From IMG/VR virus record IMGVR_UViG_3300045971_000512, positions 1 through 21,658 of that record: 21,658 bases of DNA; one strand, written 5' to 3'. The translations under genes and the position numbers were made by a program. This DNA comes from a virus. Positions within the stretch are counted from its first letter, which is position 1, and each line of letters starts with the position of its first letter. Below are positions 1 through 14,400 of this stretch, in pieces. The notes below the pieces were generated by a model. It ran no database searches. It was not told where the DNA came from and saw only the letters and a list, made by a program, of their open reading frames with translations.

Positions 1-1
1 G

Positions 2-385
2 TATTCCGGTCGCTGGGTTCCGGTCGGACGTATCACGAAAGGTGATCGTGCCGGGACCGAAACTGTCTGGGCACTGCTCAACTACCTCATCCAAGGCAAC
101 TGTCGGGAGATGCTCGTCGGTTCCTGGCGCAGGTTCGCCGAGATGCACCCGGACTACGCGGGTTTCGTGCGCTTCCCCGTGCACGACGAGTTGATCGTGT
201 CCTGCCCGCAGGATCGGGCCGAGGAAGTCTCCAAAGCGCTCACCGAGGCGATGTCCTTCGACTTCTACGGAGTACCGATCACCGCGGAGGCTGATCTGCT
301 CATCGACGAGGCTGGACGATCAAGGTGGATGAGTGGTGATCTTGCTAAGAAGATCAGACTGGCCAAGGAAGCCGCACTGTCATGA
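2..385 (+). CDS. polA: DNA polymerase I (family A), C-terminal part
   Basis: This is the 3' end of a family A DNA polymerase that runs in from the left edge, so the true start is outside the window. It would copy the phage DNA in the cytoplasm. The open frame from base 2 gives 127 residues. Residues 22-35 (VWALLNYLIQGNCR) resemble the helix after the polymerase O-helix region. Residues 58-66 (FPVHDELIV) are motif C, with the conserved His-Asp-Glu that binds catalytic metal. The C-terminus after motif C has the normal length, so the gene end looks intact. Its stop overlaps the ATG of the next gene by four bases, which suggests translational coupling with the resolvase. The exonuclease and the rest of the palm/fingers cannot be judged. 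Confidence 0.9.
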   Translation, partial: YSGRWVPVGRITKGDRAGTETVWALLNYLIQGNCREMLVGSWRRFAEMHPDYAGFVRFPVHDELIVSCPQDRAEEVSKALTEAMSFDFYGVPITAEADLLIDEAGRSRWMSGDLAKKIRLAKEAALS

Positions 386-756
386 CGGACGCACGACGGC
401 GCAGACGCGAACAGCACGTCGAGACCACCTACGGGATCGGCCCGGCCGCGTTGCGTGCGCTGGAGACCTTCCAGGGCAATCGATGCTGGGGTTGCCGTCG
501 CGCCACCGGTGCATCGAAGGCTCTTGCCCTTGACCACGACCACCGGTCAGGAGAGGGAAGGATGTTGCTGTGCTCCACGTGCAATAGATTGATCGTCGGC
601 CGGCAGATGCGGGACAGCCCGACCGCGCTTATCCGGCTCGGTATGGCGCTGGTCGATCCGCCGTCGCGCGCGGCATGGCTACGTCCGGGCGCTATCCACC
701 CTGGCTGGCAGGATGACTCACAAGAGCTTCAGGATTGGCTGGAGTCGCGTGAGTAG
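382..756 (+). CDS. Recombination endonuclease VII-like HNH nuclease
   Basis: A 124-residue protein of the T4 endonuclease VII family, which cleaves Holliday junctions and branched DNA before packaging. The family signature is visible in order: Cys35-x2-Cys38, then LDHDH at 50-54, then G-x-G-R-MLLC-x2-CN at 57-68. The four cysteines form the zinc site and Asp51/His52/Asn68 belong to the beta-beta-alpha-metal active site. The basic N-terminus (RRRRRE) is probably for DNA contact. The ATG overlaps the polymerase stop (ATGA), the usual order for actinophage polymerase-resolvase pairs. The length is close to that of other phage members. The family assignment is strong, but the exact DNA substrate is inferred. 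Confidence 0.88.
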   Translation: MTDARRRRREQHVETTYGIGPAALRALETFQGNRCWGCRRATGASKALALDHDHRSGEGRMLLCSTCNRLIVGRQMRDSPTALIRLGMALVDPPSRAAWLRPGAIHPGWQDDSQELQDWLESRE

Positions 757-959
757 GCGGACGGATTGGCGGAGGCGGTCAGGGCGTCAGCAAGGTGGCG
801 ACGGTGGTCCTCACCGGTCGCCACGTTCTCTCGGGGTAGCTCGCCAATGGCGTGCAGCCAGTCCTCATCACTCGCCATGTGATCAGGATAGAACATTCCT
901 TCCCCTGATACACGCCGGTAGATCGGGACCCCTGACACCGACTGATCCGTCAGGCGCAC
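729..959 (-). CDS. Probable antisense small protein, unknown function
   Basis: A 76-residue reading frame from a GTG at 959 that fills the 244-base gap between the resolvase and the small terminase and overlaps the resolvase 3' end by 28 bases, tail to tail. Its composition looks like a real soluble acidic protein (for example DEDWLHAIGELPRENV in the middle), with codons favouring G/C in the third position. The plus-strand frames in the gap are Arg/Pro-rich and look like shadows. There is no good ribosome site. A candidate promoter lies just upstream and would leave only about ten bases of leader. I do not recognise a family. It would be the only minus-strand gene in the left 17 kb, so caution is needed. 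Confidence 0.5.
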   Translation of the reverse strand: MRLTDQSVSGVPIYRRVSGEGMFYPDHMASDEDWLHAIGELPRENVATGEDHRRHLADALTASANPSAYSRDSSQS

Positions 960-969
960 CCCGGCAGGT

Positions 970-997
970 ACCGTAGTAGCCCAGACCTGACATTCAA
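970..997 (-). promoter_or_regulatory. Candidate promoter for the 729-959 minus-strand gene
   Basis: Read on the minus strand there is TTGAAT (997-992), a 16-base spacer and TACGGT (975-970), about ten bases before the GTG at 959. The -10 fits the TANNNT form common in Actinobacteria. The match is modest and could be chance. A TACCGT on the plus strand overlaps it at 969-974, but I see no matching -35. Confidence 0.3.
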
Positions 998-1000
998 CGG

Positions 1001-1453
1001 ATGGCGCAAATGACTGTTGATCCGAGCGACGTCGAGCGGCCCGACAACGCGCCGCTGGAGACCTCGAAGCGCAACAAGGCGCTGTCCATGCGCCTCGCCG
1101 GCATGAGCTTCCAGGAGATCGGCGATCACTTCGGGATGACTCGTCAGAGCGCCTGGGAGTTGATCCACCGTGCGTTGGCGATGGTGCCGAGCCGGCAGGC
1201 CGATGAGCTGCGCCTCGAAGAGAACCTGCGGCTCGACATCGCGCAGGCGAGGATCTGGTCCAAGGTCCTCGACGGTGATCTTAAGGCCGTCGACGCCTTC
1301 CTGAGGATCTCCGCGCGCCGCGCCCGCATGAACGGCCTTGACCTCGCGGCCGACGTCAGCGTGTCAGTCAGCGTCCGGCAGGATCTTGACGTGGCGCTCA
1401 AGCAACTCGAGGAAGTGATCAAGGGAGAGGTAGTAGACAGGCCGGCGGAGTAG
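1001..1453 (+). CDS. Putative terminase small subunit (HTH protein)
   Basis: A 150-residue protein with a helix-turn-helix at about residues 28-60 (RLAGMSFQEIGDHFGMTRQS in its core), followed by a long helical region ending in RRARMNGLDLA. HTH plus a helical middle carrying an R-RA-R-x-GLD motif is the usual layout of actinophage small terminases, which recognise the packaging site and load the large subunit. The C-terminal tail (VALKQLEEVIKGEV) looks helical. Two starts are possible, ATG 1001 or ATG 1010, and neither has a clear ribosome site. The large terminase is 2.2 kb downstream, with about a dozen small genes in between, which is unusual. It could instead be a transcription regulator. 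Confidence 0.6.
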   Translation: MAQMTVDPSDVERPDNAPLETSKRNKALSMRLAGMSFQEIGDHFGMTRQSAWELIHRALAMVPSRQADELRLEENLRLDIAQARIWSKVLDGDLKAVDAFLRISARRARMNGLDLAADVSVSVSVRQDLDVALKQLEEVIKGEVVDRPAE

Positions 1454-1470
1454 TGCTAGGGTTAGAGCAC
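1453..1470 (+). promoter_or_regulatory. Palindromic extended -10 promoter/operator, copy 1
   Basis: GTGCTAGGGTTAGAGCAC is an 18-base imperfect inverted repeat. It contains an extended -10 (TGC-TAGGGT, hexamer 1457-1462), with arms GTGCTA and TAGAGCAC-like. The downstream ATG at 1492 is 21 bases away behind a GAGGGAG ribosome site. The first base overlaps the last base of the preceding gene's stop codon. It is one of five copies in the window (others at 5287, 5619, 6295, 7057). Confidence 0.6.
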
Positions 1471-1491
1471 AACCTACCGAGGGAGCCCGCG

Positions 1492-1629
1492 ATGAACGTC
1501 TACGCACTCGCCGACAGCCTGGCCCGTCAGCGCGAGCTGGAGGACGCCGCGGCCGAGCTTGCCGACGAGGAGTTGGCGCTGGCCGCTGAGGCCGCGGGCG
1601 GCACGGACGCGAACTGGTCGACGTCGTGA
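1492..1629 (+). CDS. Small acidic helical protein, unknown
   Basis: A 45-residue, Ala/Glu-rich protein (middle: QRELEDAAAELADEELALAA) that is probably one amphipathic helix or short coiled coil. The ATG has a good ribosome site (CGAGGGAGC, about 8 bases upstream) and sits 21 bases after the palindromic promoter at 1453-1470. The stop overlaps the next gene's GTG (GTGA), so it heads an operon running through to the large terminase. I do not recognise a family. The strong initiation signals support it as a real gene despite its size. Confidence 0.6.
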   Translation: MNVYALADSLARQRELEDAAAELADEELALAAEAAGGTDANWSTS

Positions 1630-1880
1630 AGCGCCGGGCAGTCATCCTCACCGCGCGGTGCCTCGACATCGGCGAGACCGAAGCCGTCGAGATTAATCCG
1701 GCGTTCGTCGAGTATGACCTGTCGATCCATGCTGTTCGGTACATCTGCCACTGCGGTGAGGCGCACATCCGAGAGATTCCCAAGAAGGATCGTCGCCGGT
1801 GGGAGCACGACTTCCGCACCGCTGGTGCTCGCGTGTTCAAAGGCCTCAAGGGCGATGTCGCCCTTGCTCGGAAGGATTGA
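1626..1880 (+). CDS. Small hypothetical protein with CxC motif
   Basis: An 84-residue basic protein starting at a GTG that overlaps the upstream stop by four bases. The N-terminal half looks like beta strands (VILTARCLD, VEYDLSIHAVRYICHCGEAHIREI). It holds a Cys-x-Cys-Gly pair at about 39-42, which could be half of a metal knuckle, but no second cysteine pair follows. The C-terminus is basic (KKDRRRWEH). The fold recalls small phage single-domain beta proteins, but I cannot name a family. It is co-directional and coupled with its neighbours. Confidence 0.6.
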   Translation: MKRRAVILTARCLDIGETEAVEINPAFVEYDLSIHAVRYICHCGEAHIREIPKKDRRRWEHDFRTAGARVFKGLKGDVALARKD

Positions 1881-1885
1881 AGATC

Positions 1886-2053
1886 ATGAGCGAGTGGGAG
1901 TACGCCGGAGACGGCTACTACGTCGAGTGGGTGACGTGCACGAAGTGCGGTGCGGACCTGGGATGCAACTACCCCGGCGATCACTGTCGGAAGCATGACC
2001 TTAAGGTCCCTACCCCTTCCCCTGCGATGTTCGCCCGGACCAAGAAGGACTGA
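1886..2053 (+). CDS. Small Cys-rich (possible zinc-binding) protein
   Basis: A 55-residue protein starting at ATG 1886, chosen because GGAAGG lies 8-10 bases upstream and just after the previous gene's stop. It contains Cys-x2-Cys-Gly (VTCTKCGADLGC) and then GDHCRKH, giving four cysteines and two histidines in 25 residues. That is a plausible treble-clef or zinc-ribbon site. No catalytic motif is visible. It is one of many such miniproteins in this window. Confidence 0.6.
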   Translation: MSEWEYAGDGYYVEWVTCTKCGADLGCNYPGDHCRKHDLKVPTPSPAMFARTKKD

Positions 2054-2055
2054 TC

Positions 2056-2307
2056 ATGACGAACCTGACCGTTCCCACTGACTACGTCGCTGATCTGCGT
2101 TTCGAGGAGATCATCTATGCGAACGAGATTCAGGAAGGAATGATCTTTATCCTGGCCTCGAGCGGCGTTCCGAGGATCTGGGCGACGGCGAAGAAGATCC
2201 GGATCGGAGTGCTCGTCCAGATCGTTTCGGTCTACCCGGATGAGACTGCGCGCCCCATAGGGATCTCCCCCAACACGCCACTGATCGTTAAGAAGGCCGT
2301 GCCGTGA
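2056..2307 (+). CDS. Small hypothetical beta-rich protein
   Basis: An 83-residue protein starting at ATG 2056, two bases after the previous stop, with a GAAGGA ribosome site. The sequence alternates hydrophobic strands and turns (EGMIFILAS, GVLVQIVSVYP, TPLIVKKAV), suggesting a small beta-barrel. The phrase NEIQEGMIFIL resembles the start of small phage SH3-like or Hint-less 'inhibitor' domains, but I cannot place it. The stop overlaps the next start. Confidence 0.6.
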   Translation: MTNLTVPTDYVADLRFEEIIYANEIQEGMIFILASSGVPRIWATAKKIRIGVLVQIVSVYPDETARPIGISPNTPLIVKKAVP

Positions 2308-2507
2308 TGCTCGCCTACGCGCTCGATCTTTTAGACTCGGCGTTGCTCGACCTCACGCTGGCTCGCCTCACCCAGGACGCCGCTGGAGCCCGTAGGGCGA
2401 AGGCGCGGGTCATCCTGGCCAGGCAGGGCGTTCGGACCGCCAGCGTGGCGCTGAGCGGCTCTGAGACGGTGTTCCTGCCCATGCCCGCTGTGGCGGTGAC
2501 GGCGTGA
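2304..2507 (+). CDS. Small hypothetical helical protein
   Basis: A 67-residue Ala/Leu-rich protein. The GTG at 2304 overlaps the upstream stop (GTGA), and an ATG at 2307 is an equal alternative. AAGAAGG lies 7-8 bases before the GTG. The first 45 residues look like two helices (YALDLLDSALLDLTLARL, then DAAGARRAKARVILARQG). The C-terminus is short and hydrophobic. It resembles no family I can name. Its last codons form the first copy of a 17-base repeat seen again 150 bases downstream. Confidence 0.55.
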   Translation: MMLAYALDLLDSALLDLTLARLTQDAAGARRAKARVILARQGVRTASVALSGSETVFLPMPAVAVTA

Positions 2508-2661
2508 AGCGTTGTCTAGAGTGCTCAAGCGAGATGAGTGATGGTGAGTCCTACGAAGGGGACGAGAGATTCTGTAGTTTCGACTGTTTCGACATCGCCC
2601 AAGTGCGGATCTGGTCGAAGGGTTATATCTGGTCGAAGGGGAGAGGTGACGGCGTGAAGCG
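2495..2661 (+). repeat. In-frame 17-bp direct repeat pair, 150 bp apart
   Basis: GGTGACGGCGTGAAGCG occurs at 2495-2511 and again at 2645-2661. Each copy carries a GTG start in the same frame followed by codons for K-R-C. A shorter tandem repeat, ATCTGGTCGAAGGG, lies between them at about 2610-2640. This looks like a duplication of the start region of a zinc-knuckle gene. Confidence 0.7.
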
Positions 2662-2755
2662 CTGTCCGGACTGCGGCGCCGTCGCCGGCCAGCTCGACCC
2701 GATCATGCACGGTTCACAGTGCGGCTGGGACGACGAGATCCGGCAGGATCGTTAG
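2504..2755 (+). CDS. Duplicated Cys-rich (probable zinc) protein
   Basis: An 83-residue protein that seems to be made of two units. Unit one begins VKRCLECSSE and has CSFDC at 24-28. Unit two begins VKRCPDCGAV at residue 51 and has a later Cys and His. Both units start with the same codons, because the 17 bases at 2495-2511 recur at 2645-2661, exactly 150 bases (50 codons) apart. Between them RIWSKGYIWSKGRG contains a tandem five-residue repeat encoded by a 14-base direct repeat. Two Cys-x2-Cys knuckles per unit suggest zinc binding. The internal GTG at 2654 could start a separate 33-residue product. The function is unknown. Confidence 0.6.
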   Translation: MKRCLECSSEMSDGESYEGDERFCSFDCFDIAQVRIWSKGYIWSKGRGDGVKRCPDCGAVAGQLDPIMHGSQCGWDDEIRQDR

Positions 2756-2759
2756 AGTG

Positions 2760-2942
2760 ATGAGTGAGTATAGAAAACGTGCCGTTCTTTGTCTTTTCGC
2801 ATCTGTTCTTATCGTGATGGTCTCATCCATTATGTCCTTTAGCGGGCTACACATAGCAGGAATAGCCCTGGGATCGTTCTCTCTTGGGGTATTAGTTGCT
2901 TCGGTAGTAGTGGGTAAGCTACTAGGGGGACCTAATGAGTGA
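2760..2942 (+). CDS. Small membrane protein, two TM segments
   Basis: A 60-residue protein with two hydrophobic helices (about residues 7-28, AVLCLFASVLIVMVSSIMSF, and 31-53, IAGIALGSFSLGVLVASVVV), a short basic N-terminus (SEYRKR) and a polar tail, so it is an inner-membrane hairpin. ATG 2760 is preferred, and the GTG at 2757 adds only one residue. The DNA is clearly richer in A/T than its neighbours and uses codons such as AGA, ATA and TTA. That suggests recent acquisition. Holin-like topology is possible, but the position among small early genes gives no support for lysis. Confidence 0.6.
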   Translation: MSEYRKRAVLCLFASVLIVMVSSIMSFSGLHIAGIALGSFSLGVLVASVVVGKLLGGPNE

Positions 2943-3216
2943 CGATCCCGTCACTACCGGTCTATTGCACCAGTTGGCGGTCAAGTCCTGGGAGGCAGTC
3001 GGGAGCGTGGACATCGAGGAACGTACGTTCCTCGATGACCTGGGGTTGCTTCAGGGCGCCGCGTTGGTGGCGCAGGTCAAGGAAGACCAAAGGTCTTTAG
3101 CTGCGGTCTTGCTCCAACTGGTCGATATGTGCAGGCGTCACCGGATTGACCTCGACACCGATGTCGAGCAGGAGTTAGCGGAACGTCGAGCAGCTTGGTT
3201 GGTGTCTGATGAGTGA
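2935..3216 (+). CDS. Possible MazG-like all-alpha protein, degenerate
   Basis: A 93-residue helical protein. The C-terminal half (LAAVLLQLVDMCRRHRIDLD, then VEQELAERRAAW) follows the pattern of MazG-type nucleotide pyrophosphohydrolases, whose third and fourth helices read L-AD-L-YL-x-G-IDL followed by N-R. In active enzymes the first helix carries ExxE and the third ExxD. Here those sites read LGLLQGA and EDQRSLAAV, so most metal-binding acids appear to be missing. If related, it may have lost catalysis. The ATG overlaps the membrane gene by 8 bases, with TAGGGGGA upstream. The assignment is tentative. Confidence 0.4.
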   Translation: MSDDPVTTGLLHQLAVKSWEAVGSVDIEERTFLDDLGLLQGAALVAQVKEDQRSLAAVLLQLVDMCRRHRIDLDTDVEQELAERRAAWLVSDE

Positions 3217-3259
3217 TGACGTCCTGCCCGGCTCGTGGAAGAGATCGGGAGAGTGGTGA
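3209..3259 (+). CDS. 16-residue mini-ORF, possible coupling peptide
   Basis: ATG 3209 opens a 16-codon frame ending in TGA at 3257-3259. It overlaps the upstream gene's end by 8 bases and the next GTG by 4 bases (GTGA). The GGGAGAG inside it can serve as the ribosome site for the next gene. It starts MSDD, like the upstream gene at 2935. It may act only to carry ribosomes onto the next start. It could equally be non-functional. Confidence 0.3.
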   Translation: MSDDVLPGSWKRSGEW

Positions 3260-3630
3260 GTAATCAAATGATTGTCTATACAATGCGTTGCCGAACCGGA
3301 GAGATAGGGAGGCATCGGAAGAGATATCTATCTAGCAGAGAGCGTATATGGTCAGACAGGGAGATATGGGACCAAAAAGATTGCGGTCCTCATACTGCAC
3401 TTCGATCGTATGTCACCATAGGTGATTGGGAGGAGGTCGACGAGTCGACAGAACCGGATATTGATCCTGACGAAGTTATCAGGCTCGGCGCTTTACGGTA
3501 TGACTGCCCTAGGTGCGGGGCTGGTCCACAATGGCCGTGTATTAACCTAGCCGAGAGGTCGAGTGGTCGAATCGTCGCCAATATGTGGCCGCACTCTGAG
3601 CGGATAATCTCGTGGAAGACAGGTAAGTGA
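3256..3630 (+). CDS. Zinc-finger protein, possible DNA/RNA binding
   Basis: A 124-residue protein. GTG 3256 is chosen over GTG 3235 because it overlaps the mini-ORF stop and follows GGGAGAG. The N-terminal third is strongly basic (RHRKRYLSSRERIW). The C-terminal 40 residues hold DCPRCGAGPQWPC, then an N-L spacer and HSER, giving C-x2-C-GA-x-P-x3-C...H-x2-R. That is a zinc-finger pattern common in actinophage and plasmid proteins. The DNA is A/T-rich relative to the flanks, with codons such as ATA, TTA and AGA. The stop overlaps the large terminase start. A nucleic-acid-binding role is inferred. Confidence 0.55.
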   Translation: MSNQMIVYTMRCRTGEIGRHRKRYLSSRERIWSDREIWDQKDCGPHTALRSYVTIGDWEEVDESTEPDIDPDEVIRLGALRYDCPRCGAGPQWPCINLAERSSGRIVANMWPHSERIISWKTGK

Positions 3631-5240
3631 CCACTGACCTTGACGACCTGCTCGGCCAGTTGCGGACCCTCGCCGGCCGGGCAGGCAGCGACGCTGAGGT
3701 CAAGATGGTCATCAGCCGGATCTCCAAGTTGACGAGGTCGTACCAGCGCGTCCCGTCGAGCCCGGCCGAGCAGGCGCAGGAGCTTGACTCGGGGTATCAA
3801 CTCCGCCCGCACATCACCTACCTGTCCGACCGGATCGCGGCGGCTGTGCGCGACGTCGAGGCCGGGCAGAATAGGTTCCTAGTCGTGTCGCTCCCGCCTC
3901 GAGCTGGGAAGTCGACACTACTCAGCGTCTATTCGGTGGTGTGGCTTCTTCGGCGCCACCCCGACTGGAAGATCGTCAGCGCGAGCCACGATGATTCGCT
4001 CGCTATCGGTTGGGCGCGGCAGGCACGGCGCATCATCGAAGAGAACCCGGACCTTGGCGTCCAACTCCAGAAGGACGGCGGCGCGGCCGGCGCCTGGAGT
4101 ACCATCGAGGGCGGTGGGCTGTTCTCCACGTCGGTGCGGAAGTCTTTACTCGGCCGCGGCGCTAGAACGTTATGGATCGACGACCCATTGAAAGACTTCG
4201 TCGAGGCTCACTCACCTGTCGTTCGTCAGTCGTTATGGGACTGGTGGCTCAGCGTCGCGCAGACGCGGCTCGAGCCTCCTTATCTCGTTGGGATCATCTC
4301 GAGCCGATGGAACCAGGATGACCTCACGGGAAGATTGCTCAGCGATGAGTTCGAGGGCGATCCGGCAGAGTGGGAAGAAATCAATATCCCCGCGATCGCC
4401 GAGTCAGGTGACGTCATCGGACGGCTCGAGGGCGATCCGCTGTTCTCGCCATTAATTACCGAGACGCGGGAAGCGGCGCTCGAGCGCTGGGATAAGCTAC
4501 GCCGCGGAGTCGGTTCCTATGTCTGGGCCGCGATGTTCCAGGGACGGCCGAGTCCGTCGACAGGCTCGATCTTCGACACGTCGTGGTGGCGATACTGGAC
4601 GAGCGACCCGGCGCGGGCCACCGATGACGGCAGGGTCGTCTATTTGGAGCCTGAGAGGCTGACCGGCGCATCGTGGCTCGATAGCTGGGACTGCGCGTTC
4701 AAGGGCACTGCTGATTCGGACTGGGTCGTCGGACAGCGCTGGGTGCGCTCGGGCGCTAACCGCTACCTCGTCGCGCAGAAGCGCGGACGGTGGACGTTTA
4801 CGGCCACGATCGAGCAGATGCTCGATTGGGCAGATCCGTCGTCGTTCTGCGGGGGCCTCGTGCATCGCCGGCTGATCGAGGACAAGGCGAACGGAACCGC
4901 GATCATCGACGTGCTGCGGGAGAAGATCGCCGGACTCAAGCCGGTCAATCCGACGATCAGCAAAGAGGCTCGCTACCGCGCCGTCACGCCCGAGATCGAG
5001 TCCGGGAACGTCTATTTGCCGCACCCGAGCGAAGCGCCCTGGGTGAACGACCTGCTGAGCGAGCTGCGCGACGCACCGCGCGGGAGTCATGACGATCAAG
5101 CTGACGCGCTCGCCCAGGCCCTCGCCGGTCTGCGCGACGTCGGTCGCGGATCTGTTGCAGCTCCCGGCCGGCGCCTCGTCGTCGTCGGCCCGAATCACCC
5201 TCAAGTTCCTGGCGCGAGCCTCTTCCGTAGGCAGGGATAG
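3627..5240 (+). CDS. terL: Terminase large subunit
   Basis: A 537-residue packaging motor that cuts concatemers and pumps DNA into the procapsid through the portal. The ATPase half shows a deviant Walker A (PPRAGKS, 90-96) and Walker B (LWIDDP, 182-187). A coupling-like motif lies at about 223-228 (IISSRW). The nuclease half shows Asp354 in SWDCAFKG, Glu418-Asp419 in RLIEDKANG and Asp489-Asp490 in SHDDQADAL, the RNase H-like acidic triad. The length is normal and nothing is missing. GTG 3627 overlaps the upstream stop. Unusually it is not next to the small terminase or portal: about 4 kb of small genes follow before the portal. Confidence 0.93.
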   Translation: MTTDLDDLLGQLRTLAGRAGSDAEVKMVISRISKLTRSYQRVPSSPAEQAQELDSGYQLRPHITYLSDRIAAAVRDVEAGQNRFLVVSLPPRAGKSTLLSVYSVVWLLRRHPDWKIVSASHDDSLAIGWARQARRIIEENPDLGVQLQKDGGAAGAWSTIEGGGLFSTSVRKSLLGRGARTLWIDDPLKDFVEAHSPVVRQSLWDWWLSVAQTRLEPPYLVGIISSRWNQDDLTGRLLSDEFEGDPAEWEEINIPAIAESGDVIGRLEGDPLFSPLITETREAALERWDKLRRGVGSYVWAAMFQGRPSPSTGSIFDTSWWRYWTSDPARATDDGRVVYLEPERLTGASWLDSWDCAFKGTADSDWVVGQRWVRSGANRYLVAQKRGRWTFTATIEQMLDWADPSSFCGGLVHRRLIEDKANGTAIIDVLREKIAGLKPVNPTISKEARYRAVTPEIESGNVYLPHPSEAPWVNDLLSELRDAPRGSHDDQADALAQALAGLRDVGRGSVAAPGRRLVVVGPNHPQVPGASLFRRQG

Positions 5241-5243
5241 CGG

Positions 5244-5304
5244 CGTAAAGAATCTTCGTTCCGATCGGCGCCTTCTCGGCTCATCTGTGCTAGACTAAAG
5301 GCAC
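5244..5304 (+). promoter_or_regulatory. Palindromic extended -10 promoter/operator, copy 2, with upstream box
   Basis: GTGCTAGACTAAAGGCAC (5287-5304) contains the extended -10 TGC-TAGACT (hexamer 5291-5296). The GTG start follows 20 bases later behind GAGGAGCAC. No TTGACA-like -35 is visible. Upstream, bases 5244-5292 match 7014-7062 at 41 of 49 positions with the same spacing, including CGTAAAGAATCTTCGTTC. This suggests a conserved activator or UP-like element. Confidence 0.65.
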
Positions 5305-5324
5305 AAGCCAACGAGGAGCACACC

Positions 5325-5612
5325 GTGAGCGTTATCGGATCGATCGGAACCTGCAAGGCCGGTCACGTGTTCCGCGTCGACGCTCTTGTCACCTACCCGA
5401 TGTCCCCCGAGTCTCCGTACATCTACTGCCCCGAGTGTGCTCCGGTGATGACAAGCTACGCGGGTCTGGTGTACTCAAAGATCAAGTGGCACCTTATCAA
5501 GGGCCGTAACTCCAAGACCGTCTGCGACAGCGCGTGCACCTCAGCCAAGGGCGAAAAGTGCATCTGCGCGTGCTCCGGAACGAATCATGGAATCGATTAT
5601 GGCCGCTTCTGA
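5325..5612 (+). CDS. Small Cys-rich protein (C-x-C-x-C...NHG family)
   Basis: A 95-residue protein from GTG 5325, with a GAGGAG ribosome site and its own palindromic promoter. It has C10 (GTCKAGH), CPEC at about 36-39, and a C-terminal block CDSACTSAKGEKCICACSGT followed by NHG. That block (C-x3-C-x2-A-x-G-x2-C-x-C-x-C-x-G-x-NHG) recurs in many actinophage and plasmid proteins and is presumably a metal site, though no function is established to my knowledge. It is a single-gene unit before the next promoter copy. Confidence 0.6.
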   Translation: MSVIGSIGTCKAGHVFRVDALVTYPMSPESPYIYCPECAPVMTSYAGLVYSKIKWHLIKGRNSKTVCDSACTSAKGEKCICACSGTNHGIDYGRF

Positions 5613-5618
5613 GTATCT

Positions 5619-5636
5619 GTGCTAGACTCAGAGCAC
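5619..5636 (+). promoter_or_regulatory. Palindromic extended -10 promoter/operator, copy 3
   Basis: GTGCTAGACTCAGAGCAC with the extended -10 TGC-TAGACT (hexamer 5623-5628). It follows the previous stop by six bases. The next ATG is 23 bases downstream, behind GAGGGAGCACA. The sequence TATCTGTGCTAGACT before and across it matches copies 2 and 5 (ATCTGTGCTA). Confidence 0.65.
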
Positions 5637-5659
5637 ACAAGGACGAGGGAGCACAGATT

Positions 5660-5818
5660 ATGAACACCAAGACCGGGCAGAGTGACTACCGCAGGCTCAA
5701 GGTGACGATCGTGCTGGAGATTGTTCCGGGCGCTACTGACGAAGACCTTATGGATTCGCTCGCCAGTGAAGCGGAGAAGCTTCCCGGAGTTCTCGCCGCT
5801 TGGACCGTATCACGGTGA
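5660..5818 (+). CDS. Small hypothetical protein (52 aa)
   Basis: A 52-residue protein from ATG 5660, with a GAGGGAG ribosome site and the palindromic promoter just upstream. It reads as strand-helix-strand: LKVTIVLEIVPGATDEDLMD, SLASEAEKLPGVLAAWTVS. This resembles half of a small ferredoxin-like fold, with a beta strand carrying E and a following acidic helix. No catalytic motif is visible. It may pair with itself as a dimer. The family is not recognised. Confidence 0.6.
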   Translation: MNTKTGQSDYRRLKVTIVLEIVPGATDEDLMDSLASEAEKLPGVLAAWTVSR

Positions 5819-5850
5819 TGGAGACACTTTAACCAGTAGGGGAGAGAATC

Positions 5851-6276
5851 GTGGGAAGTATTCGGGCAGGAATCACAGGGACTCGGAACGGCGGCACCCC
5901 CGAACAGTACGGCAAACTTGCTGAGATGTTCCGACGCATAAGCATATCGGAATTTCATCATGGGGACTGTAAGGGTGTCGACGCTACGTCTGCAAGATTG
6001 GTGCGCGCACTACGACCCATTACTAAGATCATTAGTCATCCCCCGATAAATCCGACCTATCGAGCTTTTACTACGGGTGACCTAGTACACGAGCCTAAAG
6101 AGTACTTAGCTCGGAATCTTGATATCGTCAACTCAATCGATCTGCTGCTTGCAGTCCCAGAAACTACCGAGACCGAAAAGAGTGGAACATGGATAACAGT
6201 TAGATACGCCCGCGAAAAGGGTCTACCTATAATCATCATTCAGACATACGGTCAGGTTACACGAGAGAACCAATAG
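5851..6276 (+). CDS. SLOG-superfamily nucleotide-binding protein
   Basis: A 141-residue Rossmann-like protein of the SLOG (DprA/LOG/YpsA-like) superfamily, which bind nucleotides or nucleotide-derived signals. The visible motifs are GITGTRNG (7-14), the phosphate-loop-like HHGDCKGVDA (36-45), SHPP at about 62-65, YLARNLDIV (about 84-92), LLLAVPET, SGTW and VRYAREKGLPIIII. This order matches the cpYpsA-type phage SLOG proteins. The GTG has AGGGGAGAG just upstream. The gene is visibly A/T-richer than the flanks (ATA, TTA and AGA codons), pointing to transfer. The ligand is unknown. It could be a deoxyribosyltransferase-like enzyme or a sensor/sponge of a defence signal. Confidence 0.7.
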   Translation: MGSIRAGITGTRNGGTPEQYGKLAEMFRRISISEFHHGDCKGVDATSARLVRALRPITKIISHPPINPTYRAFTTGDLVHEPKEYLARNLDIVNSIDLLLAVPETTETEKSGTWITVRYAREKGLPIIIIQTYGQVTRENQ

Positions 6277-6294
6277 GTCCGGGAAGGTTGTGGC

Positions 6295-6312
6295 GTGCTA
6301 GACTAATAGCAC
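6295..6312 (+). promoter_or_regulatory. Palindromic extended -10 promoter/operator, copy 4 (perfect arms)
   Basis: GTGCTA-GACTAA-TAGCAC is a perfect 6+6 inverted repeat enclosing the extended -10 TGC-TAGACT (hexamer 6299-6304). The next ATG is 23 bases downstream, after AAGCCAACGAAGGAGCACAC. That leader is nearly identical to copy 2. No clear -35 is seen. Confidence 0.7.
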
Positions 6313-6335
6313 AAGCCAACGAAGGAGCACACGCC

Positions 6336-6740
6336 ATGAGCGCACAGTACGAGGTCATCGGCTGCAACGATGAGCAGACGACGTGCGACCACTGCGGCCG
6401 ACAAGGTCTGAAGCGCACTGTGATCCTCCGCTCGCTCGACGACGGCGAGGTCGTACGGTTCGGCTCGGACTGCGCGCTCCGTGCGGCAGCCGTCCCCGGC
6501 GTCCAGACGAAGTCGCAGTTGGACCGGAAGGTCTACGCCGCGCAGGTCGAGACTGAGCAGATCAGTTCTCGGTACGGGCAGGCCGTCGCGGTCCTCGCCG
6601 ATCCGGAACGGATCGCGCGGAACTGGGCGGTCAGGGTCAACTCCCCGTTCTGGAACGCGGTCTGGACGCTCGACGATGAGCGTTGCTACTGGACGCAGGC
6701 ACGCGACAACGCTGCGGACGAACTGGCAGGACGGTCATGA
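6336..6740 (+). CDS. Zinc-ribbon protein of phage/plasmid type
   Basis: A 134-residue protein from ATG 6336, chosen because GAAGGAG sits about 11 bases upstream and the palindromic promoter is 23 bases away. The N-terminal domain is CDHCGRQGLKRTVILRSL, followed by DDGEVVRFGSDCALRAA, i.e. a C-x2-C knuckle, two strands and a third cysteine. This module is common in actinobacterial plasmids and phages, where it is annotated only as hypothetical or zinc-ribbon. The C-terminal half is helical with many Trp/Arg residues. The stop overlaps the next ATG (ATGA). The function is unknown. Confidence 0.62.
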   Translation: MSAQYEVIGCNDEQTTCDHCGRQGLKRTVILRSLDDGEVVRFGSDCALRAAAVPGVQTKSQLDRKVYAAQVETEQISSRYGQAVAVLADPERIARNWAVRVNSPFWNAVWTLDDERCYWTQARDNAADELAGRS

Positions 6741-7018
6741 CCGATCAACTGTGTCTTGAATGTAACCATGATGTTGCGAGACATGCTGCCTTCGGCTGTC
6801 TTTATAGGGATAACAACGGCCTGTGCTTCTGCAACATCACGTGGGCGGAGGCTGTAAAGGCTACCGGGACAGATGATTATGATCTGGACCTCGTCGAGCG
6901 GGTGGCGTGGACCATCGTCGACGATCCTGAGCGAGCCGAGCTGGATGGGTCATGGCTCGACGATGCCAGGCGAGTCCTAGATCTACTCGTCGCGGAAGGT
7001 CGTCTCTGCGAGCCGTAA
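6737..7018 (+). CDS. Small Cys/His-rich protein, unknown
   Basis: A 93-residue protein whose ATG overlaps the previous stop. The first 35 residues hold CLECNHDVARH, then FGCLY and LCFCN, giving five to six Cys plus two His, which suggests a zinc site. The rest is an acidic helical domain (DLVERVAWTIVDDPERAEL, LDDARRVLDLLVAEG). N-terminal zinc knuckle plus helical tail is a frequent design in actinophage small proteins, but I cannot name the family. The stop codon (TAA, 7016-7018) lies inside the next promoter's upstream box. Confidence 0.58.
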   Translation: MTDQLCLECNHDVARHAAFGCLYRDNNGLCFCNITWAEAVKATGTDDYDLDLVERVAWTIVDDPERAELDGSWLDDARRVLDLLVAEGRLCEP

Positions 7019-7074
7019 AGAATCTTCGTTCTAGTCGGCGCTGCCCCAGCTCATCTGTGCTACAGTTAGAGCAC
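7014..7074 (+). promoter_or_regulatory. Palindromic extended -10 promoter/operator, copy 5, with upstream box
   Basis: GTGCTACAGTTAGAGCAC (7057-7074) has the extended -10 TGC-TACAGT (hexamer 7061-7066). The 43 bases before it repeat those of copy 2 at the same distance (CGTAAAGAATCTTCGTTC at 7014). Unlike the other copies, the leader is long, 71 bases. It starts with the 10-base palindrome GGTCCGGACC (7077-7086) and has GGGTCCGGG at about 7114-7122. Confidence 0.62.
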
Positions 7075-7145
7075 AAGGTCCGGACCACGAGCCGCCGCTA
7101 CACCGAGGCACTCGGGTCCGGGCCATTACCAAGCAAGGAGTCGAC

Positions 7146-7289
7146 ATGGACGCCAAGATTCACGTCAGCCGGCCGATGGACTCGGTGTGGACGTGCCTGC
7201 TCTGCGGCGAGACCTTCGCCACGCAGCGAGACGCGAACACCCACGAGCTGAGCGACATCTCGTCGTGGCTCCCGACCTGGAGTAACTGA
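7146..7289 (+). CDS. C2H2-like zinc miniprotein (47 aa)
   Basis: A 47-residue protein from ATG 7146 with an AAGGAG ribosome site 7 bases away. Residues 15-33 read WTCLLCGETFATQRDANTH, a C-x2-C-x12-H pattern like a classical zinc finger missing the second histidine. A His near residue 6 might complete it. Such miniproteins may bind DNA or RNA or act as protein inhibitors. The function is not established. It leads a small operon with the following genes. Confidence 0.55.
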   Translation: MDAKIHVSRPMDSVWTCLLCGETFATQRDANTHELSDISSWLPTWSN

Positions 7290-7291
7290 TC

Positions 7292-7420
7292 ATGTCTGAC
7301 GCGACCCGCACGCTTCTCGCTTCGATCTACGGTGAGTCCCGCTGGGACACGCCGCGTCCCGGACACGTCACCGTCGGCACGTGCGGTGACCACGAAGGCA
7401 TCACTGAGCAGGAGGCGTAA
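7292..7420 (+). CDS. Small hypothetical protein (42 aa)
   Basis: A 42-residue frame from ATG 7292, two bases after the previous stop, ending at TAA 7420. It has few distinctive features. The C-terminal part (GHVTVGTCGDHEGITEQEA) carries a Cys and two His. The ribosome site is weak (GGAG about 12 bases upstream). Operon position and spacing support it more than the sequence does. Confidence 0.42.
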   Translation: MSDATRTLLASIYGESRWDTPRPGHVTVGTCGDHEGITEQEA

Positions 7421-7423
7421 GGC

Positions 7424-7633
7424 GTGAATCTAACCCGCACCCGCGATGATGGCCCGGTCATCGCGTATCAGAACGTGACGATCCGGGACGCCGGCAAGAT
7501 GGTCGCGTGGTGCGCCGCCGATAACCTTGGCTGGTCGCAGCGCCGGGCGACGAATGAGGGAGTGAAGGCGGAACGGGCCTTCACAGCCGGCGAGCCCTAT
7601 GTCCTCGGCCGATACACGTTCGTCATTTCCTAA
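7424..7633 (+). CDS. Small hypothetical protein (69 aa)
   Basis: A 69-residue protein from GTG 7424, preceded by CAGGAGG about 11 bases upstream. The middle looks like a strand-helix-strand (AYQNVTIRDAGKMVAWCAADNLGW), followed by basic residues and a final beta strand (YVLGRYTFVIS). Family not recognised. It sits third in the operon starting at 7146. After its stop a purine-rich GAGAGAGAGAGA tract leads to the next start. Confidence 0.52.
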   Translation: MNLTRTRDDGPVIAYQNVTIRDAGKMVAWCAADNLGWSQRRATNEGVKAERAFTAGEPYVLGRYTFVIS

Positions 7634-7659
7634 CCGAAAGAAGAGAGAGAGAGAGAGTA

Positions 7660-8031
7660 ATGCACCAGGACACAGCAGAGCACCGGGCACGTTTCGTCTA
7701 CGAGACCCTGCGGACCCGCGCGGTGGAGACGGGCGCACCGATCGTCCCCGAACCGTGGGAGGAGCGGGACGAGGTTCGCCGGGCAGCGTTCACGGAGACG
7801 GTCAACAAGCGGTGCGATGAGAAGGGACCGCGCACGCCGCAGGAGTCGCACGAGGAATGGGTCGCCGCCGTCGCCGCTGAGGGCTGGACGTACGGCCCTG
7901 TCCGTGACGTCGAGAACAAGACACATCCGAACATGGTTGCGTGGATCTACCTGGACCCGGCCGAGCAGGCGAAGGACATCGCGTTCATGAACGTCTGTGA
8001 GCTGGCCCGACTGTTCCACTCCGGGCGCTAG
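7660..8031 (+). CDS. RyR-domain protein
   Basis: A 123-residue protein from ATG 7660, behind an unusual (GA)n purine tract that serves as a long ribosome site. The C-terminal half has WTYGPVRDVENKTHPNMVAW, then LDPAEQAKDIAFMNVCELA. This is the signature of the RyR domain (W-x-G-x4-D-x3-KTHP...KD), first seen in ryanodine receptors and common in bacterial and phage proteins, where it is thought to bind nucleotides or ligands. The N-terminal half is charged and helical. In bacteria RyR domains often occur beside NAD/nucleotide-signalling proteins. A SLOG gene lies 1.4 kb upstream. The precise role is unknown. Confidence 0.65.
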   Translation: MHQDTAEHRARFVYETLRTRAVETGAPIVPEPWEERDEVRRAAFTETVNKRCDEKGPRTPQESHEEWVAAVAAEGWTYGPVRDVENKTHPNMVAWIYLDPAEQAKDIAFMNVCELARLFHSGR

Positions 8032-8041
8032 GCTGACCGGC

Positions 8042-8254
8042 ATGGACTACGATGCGCATCGCTTAGTTCCGGAGAGTCTGGCCGGGCGTGTGACCTGTGA
8101 TGAGTGCGGCGGCGCCGTTGAGAGTCTGGACACGCATATCGAGGACCCGCCACTCCCTCCACCGTCGGACTTCTATTTCCGGGCGAATCCGGTGGTGACG
8201 GAGACGCTGCACCCTTGCGGGCACAGTAGCGGCTACACGCAGGACGAAACGTGA
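8042..8254 (+). CDS. Small Cys-rich hypothetical protein (70 aa)
   Basis: A 70-residue protein. ATG 8042 is chosen over the longer GTG because it begins just after the previous stop. It has CDECGGAVESLDTHI near residues 19-33 and a C-terminal LHPCGH, giving C-x2-C...C-x-H, a possible zinc site. There is no ribosome site. Instead TAGGCT (8029-8034) lies seven bases before the ATG, so a leaderless message is conceivable, but no -35 is seen. Its stop overlaps the next GTG. Confidence 0.52.
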   Translation: MDYDAHRLVPESLAGRVTCDECGGAVESLDTHIEDPPLPPPSDFYFRANPVVTETLHPCGHSSGYTQDET

Positions 8255-8511
8255 AGCCGACCGCCGATAACAGCCCCGTCGTCGTGATCCCATACGTGTA
8301 TTGGGTCGAGACCGGACACCCGTACATGGAGGTATCGGCAGCTCTCGGCGGTGAGTTGCTGAAGGACAGGCAGCGGGTCGAGGGCTGGGGAGCGCTGGTG
8401 ATCAAGACCGATGACACCGTAGCGATCGAAGGATCGTATGAGGACCTGGACGCGCTGCTGACCGTGCTGCGGAAGCAATTGGACGACCTGAGAGAGAAGG
8501 CCGCGGAGTGA
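8251..8511 (+). CDS. Small hypothetical protein (86 aa)
   Basis: An 86-residue protein from GTG 8251, overlapping the previous stop by four bases. It appears to be an alpha/beta unit: strands VVVIPYVYWVE and ALVIKTDDTVAIEG, then a C-terminal helix EDLDALLTVLRKQLDDLREK that could be a coiled coil. It starts MKPTAD, much like the next gene (MKPTDV). No motif is recognised. Confidence 0.55.
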   Translation: MKPTADNSPVVVIPYVYWVETGHPYMEVSAALGGELLKDRQRVEGWGALVIKTDDTVAIEGSYEDLDALLTVLRKQLDDLREKAAE

Positions 8512-8843
8512 AGCCGACTGATGTGGCGCTGGTCCTCGGGGCGACGATGCGCCTGACCCGGTTCGTCGTCGTTGATGACCTTGGGCAGTGGATGATTCGT
8601 GATCCGATCGACAAGGTGCTGCACGAGCACGAGAGTCTGACCCCATATCACAAGTACCAGTCGATGCTCGTGTGCCCGTGGTGTGTCGGCACTCACGTTG
8701 GCTGGCTGGTGCTCGGCAGTTACGTGCTCACCGGCCGGTCGAAGCGGGCACGCGGTGCCTGGCGGTTCGGAGCTGGTGTTCTCACGCTGAACTACGTCGC
8801 TGCGCAGCTCGGTATTCGACTCGGCGACGTCTCATCTGATTGA
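8508..8843 (+). CDS. DUF1360-like small membrane protein
   Basis: A 111-residue protein from GTG 8508 (overlap with previous stop). It shows ATMRLTRFVVVDDLGQWMIR near the start and LVCPWCVGTHVGWLVLGSYV in the middle. Together R-L-T-R-x-x-x-x-D and L-C-x-W-C-x-G are the hallmark of the DUF1360 family, widespread in phages and Gram-positive bacteria and of unknown function. Two or three hydrophobic stretches suggest it sits at the membrane. The intact CxxC could be redox-active or bind metal. Confidence 0.68.
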   Translation: MKPTDVALVLGATMRLTRFVVVDDLGQWMIRDPIDKVLHEHESLTPYHKYQSMLVCPWCVGTHVGWLVLGSYVLTGRSKRARGAWRFGAGVLTLNYVAAQLGIRLGDVSSD

Positions 8844-8875
8844 ATAGAACTCCCACAACCGGAAGAGAGAACAGC

Positions 8876-9202
8876 ATGGCACAGGAAACGATCGTCCGAC
8901 TCACCGACGACATCGACGGCTCGGAAGCGGCCGAGTCCGTCACCTTCGGTCTCGACGGCGTCACGTACTCCATCGACCTGTCGAACAAGAACGCCTCGGA
9001 TCTGCGCGAGCAGCTCGCGGTATGGGTCGAGCACGCTCGGAAGGTGTCCGGCCGGGCCAAGGCCAAGCAGAACGGCAGCAACGGCGCTTCTCACCCCGAC
9101 CTGCCGACCGTGCGGGCCTGGGCGAAGGCGCAGGGATTCGAGGTCAGCGAGCGGGGCCGCATCGCCAAGGAGGTCCTTGAGGCGTTCGCCGCCGCCAACT
9201 GA
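8876..9202 (+). CDS. lsr2: Lsr2 nucleoid-associated protein
   Basis: A 108-residue full-length Lsr2 homologue. Lsr2 is the actinobacterial H-NS-like protein that coats A/T-rich DNA and silences it. The N-terminal oligomerisation domain (1-60) shows LTDDIDGSEAAESVTFGLDG and YSIDLSNKNASDLR. A linker of Lys/Asn/Gly follows. The C-terminal DNA-binding domain (75-108) has VRAWAKAQGFEVSERGRIAK, with the minor-groove RGR at 93-95. ATG 8876 is chosen over GTG/ATG upstream for its GGAAGAGAG ribosome site. The twin hairpins follow immediately. A phage copy could silence the A/T-rich accessory genes here or interfere with the host protein. Confidence 0.92.
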   Translation: MAQETIVRLTDDIDGSEAAESVTFGLDGVTYSIDLSNKNASDLREQLAVWVEHARKVSGRAKAKQNGSNGASHPDLPTVRAWAKAQGFEVSERGRIAKEVLEAFAAAN

Positions 9203-9208
9203 AAGCCG

Positions 9209-9279
9209 CCCTTCCCTGCACTGTCGAGGGGAGGGAGCAGAACCGCTCATCCTTGCACTGTCGGAGGGTGGGCGGTTCT
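9209..9279 (+). terminator. Twin stem-loops with identical loops after lsr2
   Basis: Hairpin one pairs 9209-9216 with 9228-9235 (8 pairs, one G-U). Hairpin two pairs 9239-9252 with 9266-9279 (14 pairs, two G-U). Both loops contain TGCACTGTCG (9217-9226 and 9254-9263). A terminator at the end of the lsr2 unit is the simplest reading, but there is no long U run after either stem, so a processing or regulatory RNA element is also possible. Confidence 0.55.
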
Positions 9280-9322
9280 TGCATGTCCGGTCGCCAGTAG
9301 ACCTGCTCGCTACCATGACTGC

Positions 9323-10924
9323 GTGACCTCTGTCGAACGGCTCCGCCCACTCGGATCATTGCGTGCCAGCGCACAGCGCCTTACCTCGCGCAGCATCGGG
9401 CGGGCCAACGTCGCTACCGGCTGGCAGGATGACGCCTGGACCCTGTTCGACGAGGTCGGTGAGCTGCACTTCCTCGCCACGACGCTGGCCGGCCGAGGTG
9501 GCAGTGCCCGGATCTACGTCGGTGAGATCGGCGACGATCCGACCGAGGCGCCGACGCCCGTCGATGACCCGAACATCTCCGGCGTGCTCGACGCGATCGG
9601 GGACAGCTCCAACGCCAGGACGCAGATGGTCGTGCGGCTCCTGGTCAACCTGTTCATCGCCGGTGGCGGCTGGCTGGTCGGCGTCCCGCGCTGGAAGCTA
9701 CCGGCGAGCCTGCTCCCGGAGGAGCCGGACCCGATGGCACCGCAGGACGAAACCCTCGAATGGCGGATGCTGTCGGTCCATGAGGTTGTCGGCAGCAGTA
9801 ATGGCAACGTCACGCTGTGGTTCGGCCCCACCGAGGCCGACAAGGTCATTATCAAGGACCCGAAGGACGCCTTTCTGATCAAGGTATGGCGTCCGCATCC
9901 CCAGAAATGGTGGGATGCGGACAGCCCCACGAGGGCAGTCCTGCCGATCCTGCGCGAGCTGGTCGCGTTGACGAAGTTCGTCTCTTCACAGACCGATTCC
10001 CGGCTGATCGGGGCCGGTGCCATCATCTTCCCCGAGTCGGCATCACGTGCGCTGCGGGTCGCGGCCGGGCTCGGTGAGGACGATCCGACCGACCCACTCA
10101 TCGAAGCCTTCATCGAGACCGCCGCGGAGGCGATCAGGAATCAGGACTCCGCTGCGGCGAAAGTGCCGATTGCCCTCAACCTACCCGATGAGTCGTGTGC
10201 GCTGGTCCGTCATCTATCCTTCGCGACCCCTCTCGATAAGGAGGCAATGCCGCTCCGTGAGGAGGCGATTCGCCGGCTCGCGCTCGGCCTGGACGCGCCG
10301 CCCGAGGTCCTCCTAGGCAGTGGAAACATCAACCATTGGGGCGGCTGGCTCGTCGACGAGCAGGTCGTCACGACCCACCTCGCCCCACCACTCGCGCTGA
10401 TCTGCGACGCGCTGACGACGCAGTACTTGTGGCCGGTCCTCGTCCAGCAGGGCAAGACGGAGGAAGAGGCGCGCCGGTTCGTCATCTGGTTCGACGTCTC
10501 CGACCTCATCATCCGGCCGAGCCATTCCCAGGACGCCTTCGCGCTGCACGCCGTCGGTGCGATCAGTGATGAAGCTCTGCGGAACGCCACCGGCTTCGAC
10601 GACACGGACAAGCCCGAAGAGGACGACCTCGACCTGCCGCTTGAGGTGACGATGGCGATTGAACTGGTGAAGGGTCAGCCGGCGCTCGCTGCTAACCCCG
10701 GACTGCCCGGCCTGGTCGCGCAGTTCCGTGCGGTGCTGCACGGTGACATCCCGATCGTCGAGACGCCGGTTGCGCAGATCCCGGAGAAGAACGGGCAGCC
10801 GCAGAGCAAGGCGCCCGCGATCGGGCCGAAGCCGATCGCCGTCGGTGCTCCGTCGCTCATCCCGCAGACCGACCAGAACCCGCCGGCCGCTCCGACTGCG
10901 GCAGCGATGGAGCCGGTCCGGTGA
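9323..10924 (+). CDS. Phage portal protein
   Basis: A 533-residue portal, the dodecameric ring at one capsid vertex through which terminase pumps DNA. The family layout is visible. There is a wing region with GGGWLVGVPRWKLP at about 113-126. A stem/crown helical part holds LREEAIRRLALGLDAPPEVL and LGSGNINHWGGWLVDEQVV (about 308-350), typical of actinophage portals. A Pro/Ala-rich disordered tail follows. GTG 9323 has no ribosome site. TACCAT ends six bases before it, so a leaderless start is conceivable. The stop overlaps the methyltransferase start, giving an unusual portal-methyltransferase coupling. Confidence 0.85.
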   Translation: MTSVERLRPLGSLRASAQRLTSRSIGRANVATGWQDDAWTLFDEVGELHFLATTLAGRGGSARIYVGEIGDDPTEAPTPVDDPNISGVLDAIGDSSNARTQMVVRLLVNLFIAGGGWLVGVPRWKLPASLLPEEPDPMAPQDETLEWRMLSVHEVVGSSNGNVTLWFGPTEADKVIIKDPKDAFLIKVWRPHPQKWWDADSPTRAVLPILRELVALTKFVSSQTDSRLIGAGAIIFPESASRALRVAAGLGEDDPTDPLIEAFIETAAEAIRNQDSAAAKVPIALNLPDESCALVRHLSFATPLDKEAMPLREEAIRRLALGLDAPPEVLLGSGNINHWGGWLVDEQVVTTHLAPPLALICDALTTQYLWPVLVQQGKTEEEARRFVIWFDVSDLIIRPSHSQDAFALHAVGAISDEALRNATGFDDTDKPEEDDLDLPLEVTMAIELVKGQPALAANPGLPGLVAQFRAVLHGDIPIVETPVAQIPEKNGQPQSKAPAIGPKPIAVGAPSLIPQTDQNPPAAPTAAAMEPVR

Positions 10925-12654: not shown

Positions 12655-12743
12655 CCGATGACGAACCGGAAACGAGTTACGGGCGAATTCATGTTCTGAT
12701 CCAGGGCGGTAAGAAGCTCGACGACAACGAGGAGCCATCGTGA
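12651..12743 (+). CDS. 30-residue mini-protein, unknown
   Basis: ATG 12651 overlaps the methyltransferase stop (ATGA), and the frame ends by overlapping the next GTG (GTGA). Thirty acidic residues (TDDEPETSYGRIHVLIQGGK in the middle). AGCGGAGAG lies just upstream. Tight coupling on both sides is the main support. Confidence 0.45.
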   Translation: MTDDEPETSYGRIHVLIQGGKKLDDNEEPS

Positions 12744-12934: not shown

Positions 12935-12938
12935 TCGG

Positions 12939-14287: not shown

Positions 14288-14374
14288 TCTGATCTCGTTC
14301 TAGCCTGGCGCGGTACGCTGGGTGCTGATCCGGGTGGTCTGGCGGAGGCTCGCGCCTTCCTTGGTAGGGCCGCA

Positions 14375-14392: not shown

Positions 14393-14400
14393 AGTGCCCC

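Follow-up and report, generated by a model that had tools for sequence, protein, structure and literature searches.

Repeats close to the element described here include those of phage cluster EC, in which the motif TAGaCTATaGGTgTaAgC is present in 12 copies located 21-30 bp before start codons, four of them between the terminase and portal genes. The EC motif, the similar EI repeats and the 18-bp EG palindrome are assigned no role in that report, and the passages found there on phage Hendrix mention no repeats (Jacobs-Sera et al. 2020, PMC7302621). In the cluster K phage Adephagia, extended start-associated sequences (ESAS) consist of a SigA-like promoter and an inverted repeat, and the authors propose that an unknown regulator acts on the repeats (PMC11373665). 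Binding was shown experimentally for gp33, the repressor of phage BPs, at palindromes in several dispersed promoters (PMC4557955). Cluster O sites are mostly away from promoters, with an orientation unlinked to transcription (PMC4351075), and the stoperators of the cluster A phage L5 are asymmetric 13-bp sites where a bound repressor monomer blocks elongation (PMC4557955, PMC3203893). This study concerns five 18-bp near-palindromes, each containing an extended -10 promoter element, in a stretch of 21,658 bases of phage DNA (IMG/VR virus record IMGVR_UViG_3300045971_000512; G+C 63%), called the window below.

Results

The five sites of the window

The initial annotation of the window proposed five near-palindromes of 18 bases, each placing an extended -10 in the same register, and both parts of that proposal were upheld. 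Searching with GTGCTAGACTNAGAGCAC at up to 3 mismatches gave exactly five matches (1453, 5287, 5619, 6295 and 7057), all on the + strand, compared to none in 100 dinucleotide shuffles. The palindrome proper is GTGCT-N8-AGCAC, which is exact in four sites and has one mismatch at 5287, while the A of GTGCTA is mirrored at 6295 only. When this shorter form was searched with up to one mismatch, the same five sites and two chance-like matches were found; the shuffle mean was 0.74 and no shuffle reached 7. All five sites contain TGC-TANNNT (TAGGGT once, TAGACT three times and TACAGT once), and a scan of both strands found TGCTANNNT at these five places and nowhere else in the window.

The sites are also strongly associated with gene starts. 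All five are outside genes, compared to 6.1% of 18-mers in the gene map of positions 1-18455, and four of the five additionally have a start codon 15-30 nucleotides (nt) downstream, which is true of 0.9% of 18-mers. The distances from the end of the motif to the start codon are, in order, 21, 20, 23, 23 and 71 nt, which agrees with the earlier claim of 20-23 bases in four of five, and the ribosome site is GGAGC ahead of the first four starts and GGAG ahead of the fifth. Site 1 (GTGCTAGGGTTAGAGCAC, 1453-1470) begins on the last base of the stop codon of the gene at 1001-1453 and has its extended -10, TGC-TAGGGT, at 1454-1462, a predicted transcription start (+1) near 1469 and an ATG at 1492. 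Site 2 (GTGCTAGACTAAAGGCAC, 5287-5304; extended -10 TGC-TAGACT) has a predicted +1 near 5303 and a GTG start at 5325. Site 3 (GTGCTAGACTCAGAGCAC, 5619-5636), which matches the consensus exactly, has a predicted +1 near 5635 and an ATG at 5660, and site 4 (GTGCTAGACTAATAGCAC, 6295-6312), which has perfect 6-bp arms, has a predicted +1 near 6311 and an ATG at 6336. For site 5 (GTGCTACAGTTAGAGCAC, 7057-7074) the predicted +1 is near 7073 and the ATG is at 7146; its 71-nt leader has a strong predicted fold (-33.7 kcal/mol for 75 nt). The annotation had found no TTGACA-like -35 at any site. This holds for sites 5287, 5619, 6295 and 7057, where at most 3/6 positions agree, but not for site 1, where TAGACA (1434-1439, + strand) matches TTGACA at 5/6 positions with a 17-bp spacer to the -10, a match expected by chance at about 0.8% per site.

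Counterpart sites in Rogerhendrixvirus

By protein similarity the window represents part of an unsequenced phage genome that is related to the Microbacterium phages and nearest to Rogerhendrixvirus (Hendrix, Leaf, Rasputia). This placement is based on the large terminase (3627-5240, + strand; ~58% identity to Leaf and 56% to Hendrix), the portal (47% identity) and the helix-turn-helix (HTH) protein adjoining the terminase. Megablast detected no deposited phage with near DNA identity to the window, and IMG/VR searches with the terminase and portal found no close relative.

Rogerhendrixvirus genomes contain a palindrome with the consensus GTGnTACAnTnGwAnCAC, which uses other letters than the window motif and is the same 18-bp dyad at the same position relative to the -10. 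Searching the + strand with GTGNTACANTNGWANCAC at up to one mismatch gave 10 matches in Hendrix, 8 in Leaf and 11 in Rasputia, and none in 8 Markov randomisations of each genome. The sites taken into the analysis (9 from Hendrix, 7 from Leaf and 10 from Rasputia) are nearly all start-associated where gene tables were checked, and several are at matching positions across the genomes. As far as the gene tables were checked, the motif is not as frequent inside genes as before starts; equal frequency would have spoken against the initial annotation. The position of site 5287, directly past the terminase, is occupied by GTGCTACACTTGAATCAC in Hendrix and by GTGATACAATGGAATCAC in Leaf; the first repeat is right after the terminase in Rasputia, Merry and Quhwah as well. 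All three Rogerhendrixvirus genomes (Hendrix 38917, Leaf 39460, Rasputia 38029) also retain, at one location, a related palindrome without the -10, in which TA is replaced by TG. This conservation hints that the dyad may have a role apart from sigma factor binding. A scan with a looser form of the Rogerhendrixvirus pattern gave, among the matches listed, mostly unrelated contigs.

Some gene calls are affected by the palindromes. The start annotated for Hendrix gene 120 (record 76492) uses the first GTG of the palindrome and that of gene 92 (record 62908) is likewise at or before a palindrome; the real starts of both are probably later ATGs. The open reading frame caller also placed a start at or before the palindrome at window position 1453.

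Dyad symmetry and direction

Symmetry was examined by cutting each set of sites at the -10 and scoring every one of 100 dyad centres. In separate analyses of the window, Hendrix and Leaf, the centre of the motif came first each time, whereas in the EC phages Merry and Quhwah and the EI phage MementoMori, whose set contains some false sites, it ranked only 62-82. Complementary cells numbered 26/45 in the window, 54/81 in Hendrix, 48/63 in Leaf and 62/90 in Rasputia against random means of 11.7, 20.7, 14.6 and 22.7, or ~2.2-3.3 times the random mean in each of these genomes. The arms change between lineages yet remain mirrored (GTGCT/AGCAC in the window and GTGAT/ATCAC in Leaf). The repeats of the sister clusters EC and EI have a similar -10 and no dyad there, which indicates that a promoter alone does not force one.

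The extended -10 is on the forward strand in 28/31 sites and on the reverse strand in 0/31. On this sequence comparison, the symmetry fails at bases a sigma factor needs. Two-directional promoters were rejected on the same count.

Leader hairpins and the start point

In Rogerhendrixvirus an RNA hairpin with an AAGGG loop is often found within a few bases past the palindrome, and at 14 sites of the three genomes its stem is at least 5 bp. Twelve such leaders were aligned. Stem cells were paired in 98.6%, compared to 67% in shuffles, although these leaders were picked by loop and stem and the percentage is therefore too high. More telling are the compensatory changes: 5/6 pairs were changed on both sides, and the covariation score was 0.87, compared to 0.24 for shuffles and no more than 0.23 with a slid partner. 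A structured 5' end directly past the palindrome fits a transcription start in its right arm, where the initial annotation had predicted it. No AAGGG-loop hairpin follows any of the window sites. The minus strand has similar AAGGG hairpins, located near Hendrix 77050, Leaf 75511 and Rasputia 74725.

Regulator and sigma factor searches

Neither the window nor any of six relatives (Hendrix, Leaf, Quhwah, MementoMori, Merry and FuzzBuster) yielded a sigma region 2, which makes the host sigma factor likely. The HTH protein at 17900-18145, named in the initial annotation as one candidate for a binding test, is HTH_17/excisionase-like and was dropped as a poor candidate because it has no relative in Hendrix or Leaf. 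The only HTH protein common to the window and Rogerhendrixvirus is the one adjoining the terminase (1001-1453, + strand; phrog_645), which has a weak sigma region 4-like HTH and is probably the small terminase subunit. Its relatives are confined to Rogerhendrixvirus (43.8-46.3% identity) and five Arthrobacter phages. Proteins encoded divergently from the 55.6-kb site in Hendrix and from its counterparts in Leaf and Rasputia matched no DNA-binding family.

Neighboring genes and other features of the window

The genes next after the five sites encode products of 45, 95, 52, 134 and 47 amino acids. The 95-residue protein downstream of site 2 (5325-5612, + strand) matched phrog_6842 (E 5e-6), with no relative among phages by tblastn. 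The 52-residue protein downstream of site 3 (5660-5818, + strand) matched no family; neither did the 134-residue protein downstream of site 4 (6336-6740, + strand), which has weak relatives in two phages, and the 47-residue protein downstream of site 5 (7146-7289, + strand) matched no Pfam family. The annotation had described a regulon of miniprotein genes. This is too narrow for products of these sizes, and in the relatives the same class of site precedes, for example, helicase and Sak4-like genes.

Identical copies of the 16-mer TAAAGAATCTTCGTTC are found on the + strand at 5246-5261 and 7016-7031, exactly 41 bp upstream of site 2 and site 5, respectively. A near-identical pair of promoters, TTGACR-N17-TATGGT, is located at 17707-17742 and 18142-18177. 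Their start codons are only 6 nt past the -10, and the mRNAs are therefore probably leaderless; the pair represents a second promoter class in the window phage. A GA-repeat run, gaagagagagagagagag, is present at 7640-7660, immediately 5' of the ATG at 7660.

Discussion

The data presented in this study suggest, with somewhat better than even confidence, that the five sites are dispersed promoters of the extended -10 type, read by the host sigma factor and overlaid by an operator for a putative dimeric regulator. The two parts of this proposal differ in strength. Promoter function is likely, judging from the position, orientation and extended -10 of the sites, which together with the dyad register and the recurrence in relatives are read directly from the DNA, while the operator is more probable than its absence. 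In the proposed model, the main sigma factor of the host would read TGn-TANNNT, mostly without a -35, at promoters that are dispersed and one-directional. Transcription would begin in the right arm, at about the A of CAC, and the resulting short leader would include a GGAGC ribosome site. The 18 bp of each site also form a dyad, with one half-site on either side of the -10 and an extent that reaches the start point, and a dimeric phage regulator on both arms could block polymerase or open-complex formation so that one regulator switches the small genes together. Inference enters with the identity of the sigma factor, the position of the start, the dimeric state of the regulator and the preference for repression over activation. 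A dimer placed there would cover the melting region and the start point, from which activation would be hard, and repression is the natural expectation.

Several observations weigh against this model. No regulator gene was found among the HTH proteins compared with Hendrix and Leaf or among the proteins divergent from the 55.6-kb site and its counterparts. The dyad is imperfect, with pair 4/15 complementary in 0/9 sites in Hendrix and pair 6/13 in 1/7 in Leaf. In the 31-site alignment 83.6% of cells are paired compared to 79.2% in shuffles, an excess kept small by the conservation of the columns, and true covariation is limited to pair 4/15. The window is a 21.7-kb fragment with five sites only, and repeats from the same genome do not count as independent. 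Finally, GTG can be read as a -16 (TRTG) element and CA as an initiator. If this last point is extended to the whole motif, the sites would be plain promoters without an operator, in which GTG is the Gram-positive -16 element, the right arm is a discriminator with a CA initiator, and the palindrome arises secondarily, from two distinct constraints on polymerase binding. The predicted +1 on the A of CAC and the presence of TRTG at 5287, 5619 and 7057 agree with this explanation, as do the EC and EI repeats, which conserve the start region without symmetry and show that such conservation alone occurs in the group. However, the complementarity in the window reaches AGCAC, that in Rogerhendrixvirus extends to GTA-n-CAC or ATCAC, the centre is identical in the window, Hendrix and Leaf, and the arms differ together. 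The palindrome kept in three genomes without its -10 is also difficult to account for in this way. Plain promoters are a possible but doubtful explanation. A phage sigma or sigma-like factor in place of that of the host, as suggested for cluster EC, is very unlikely. EC and EI genomes do have a gene annotated as an RNA polymerase sigma factor (PMC7302621), but these factors are only 77-86 amino acids and have no Pfam sigma match, and a sigma factor does not need a dyad. Region 2, which reads the -10, was found in none of the genomes searched, and the idea was rejected for that reason, though the window is a fragment and a factor could be encoded outside it.

Control at the RNA level could be added to the promoter. 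In RNA that reads through from upstream, the left arm would pair with AGCAC of the ribosome site, while RNA initiated at the promoter within the site would not contain this arm and would be translated. Phage T4 gene e has a comparable read-through RNA control. At 5619, ATCTGTGCT (the left arm and flank, 5615-5623, + strand) forms 9/9 pairs with its ribosome-binding-site partner AGCACAGAT (5650-5658, + strand), with z = -3.65 for the read-through RNA, and at 6295, TGGCGTG (6291-6297, + strand) forms 7 bp with CACGCCA (6330-6336, + strand) at the ribosome-binding site and start codon of the gene at 6336. In the window (p = 0.017) and in Merry (p = 0.003), pairing within a site was stronger than when sites were swapped. 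At corresponding sites of Merry (33748-33793) and Quhwah (32831-32876) the promoter spacer could form a helix of 13-14 bp with the ribosome site of the gene that follows, and the two phages differ there by a compensatory change. However, site 1453 has no such pairing and that at 5287 and 7057 is weak, and there was no signal in Hendrix, Leaf and Rasputia (p = 0.87, 0.76 and 0.61), Quhwah (0.10) or MementoMori (0.28). The pattern was also noticed after the fact, and it would leave the dyad in Rogerhendrixvirus unexplained. Masking of ribosome sites was thus rejected as a general rule since it fails in Rogerhendrixvirus; as the explanation of the sites it is quite unlikely, and its potential role as a second layer at 5619 and 6295 is put forward as a lead only. 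A reading that joins the operator to this RNA control is also unlikely. In it a single 18-bp dyad would combine the promoter core, the start region and the operator, its sequence changing from one phage lineage to the next together with a putative dimeric regulator, and some copies would additionally act as an RNA switch in which read-through messages hide the ribosome site via the left arm and palindrome-started messages do not. The palindrome as an RNA hairpin in its own right was discarded because RNA started within the palindrome would not contain the left arm and because covariation is weak.

The promoter-operator model supplies exact predicted start points and arms for cultured phages with known laboratory hosts and, if correct, would suggest that a single regulator coordinates scattered small genes in phages presumed to be lytic. 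The sets of start-associated repeats in actinophage clusters EC, EI, EG, K and O lack an assigned function; here one such set and its Rogerhendrixvirus match are read as promoters with an operator on the -10. No earlier description of the Rogerhendrixvirus set was found in the literature searched. Scans of IMG/VR and GTDB for the window motif gave matches mostly inside genes of low-GC contigs or chance-like ones, and one contig (L032) was the only one with two exact copies of a similar 18-mer. Four contigs (L113, L128, L144 and L160) each have two copies of GTGTTACACTnGCATCAC shortly before start codons, apparently an independent occurrence of a similar palindrome. Another start-associated repeat resembling an extended -10, the cassette TGCTAGAnTnAnGnCACAAGnGAAGAnGAGAGCACGAAGCTCnATGACGA, is present in about five copies at 6600-9300 of a low-GC contig (L023).

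Among the described systems, the EC and EI repeats resemble the window sites in layout. They share one orientation, a first copy right after the terminase and, in EC, the -10 TAGACT; the window sites are all on the + strand, 20-23 nt before starts in 4/5, with 4/5 between terminase and portal. Most copies in the EC phage Merry have TAGACA-N17-TAGACT, the same type of arrangement as the TAGACA at 17 bp in site 1. In contrast to the window dyad, however, EC and EI repeats are reported as asymmetric, and they have an upstream palindrome-like block, CTAAcc..gaTTAG, that was not seen upstream of the window sites on inspection of alignments. In most copies in Merry, Quhwah and MementoMori this block (CTAACC-N3-ATTAG) ends ~20 bp before the -10; at Merry 6737 and 33969 and Quhwah 7067 and 33038 it ends ~9-10 bp before, nearly one helical turn less. 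The EC core matches site 5287 at 17/24 positions (7 mismatches) and site 6295 with 9 mismatches, and both its register relative to the -10 and its location past the terminase agree. However, 7 mismatches were also reached in 2/20 randomised windows, and a claim of homology to EC based only on this match was given up because the match is within chance.

The cluster K ESAS are likewise dispersed, intergenic combinations of a promoter and an inverted repeat (PMC3203893, PMC11373665). However, they are ~46-47 bp long with a -35 and a -10, spaced imperfect repeats of 15-17 bp and a separate 13-bp start-associated sequence (SAS) at the ribosome site, whereas each window site is one 18-bp dyad on the -10. 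The SigA-type -35 and -10 at 17-18 bp do not characterize the window set, in which only site 1453 has a -35, and no 15-17-bp repeat pair upstream of the SAS GGGATAGGAGCCC was noticed in the leaders read, for which no dedicated scan was made. The BPs operators differ in having 12-bp CGACATATGTCG half-sites, a PR operator between the -35 and -10, and a known repressor in a temperate phage. The 17-bp cluster O (PMC4351075) and 18-bp EG (PMC7302621) palindromes are similarly numerous short dyad repeats in actinophages, with different sequences. The initial annotation compared the sites to stoperators, and this applies to their being dispersed and repeated, but the parallel is weaker than that with the ESAS or the BPs operators because stoperators are asymmetric and block elongation, whereas the window sites are dyad-symmetric and each has an extended -10. 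The idea of regulator palindromes linked to promoters is thus already known from the ESAS and BPs, and what is new here is that the dyad is fused to the -10 and recurs in other letters.

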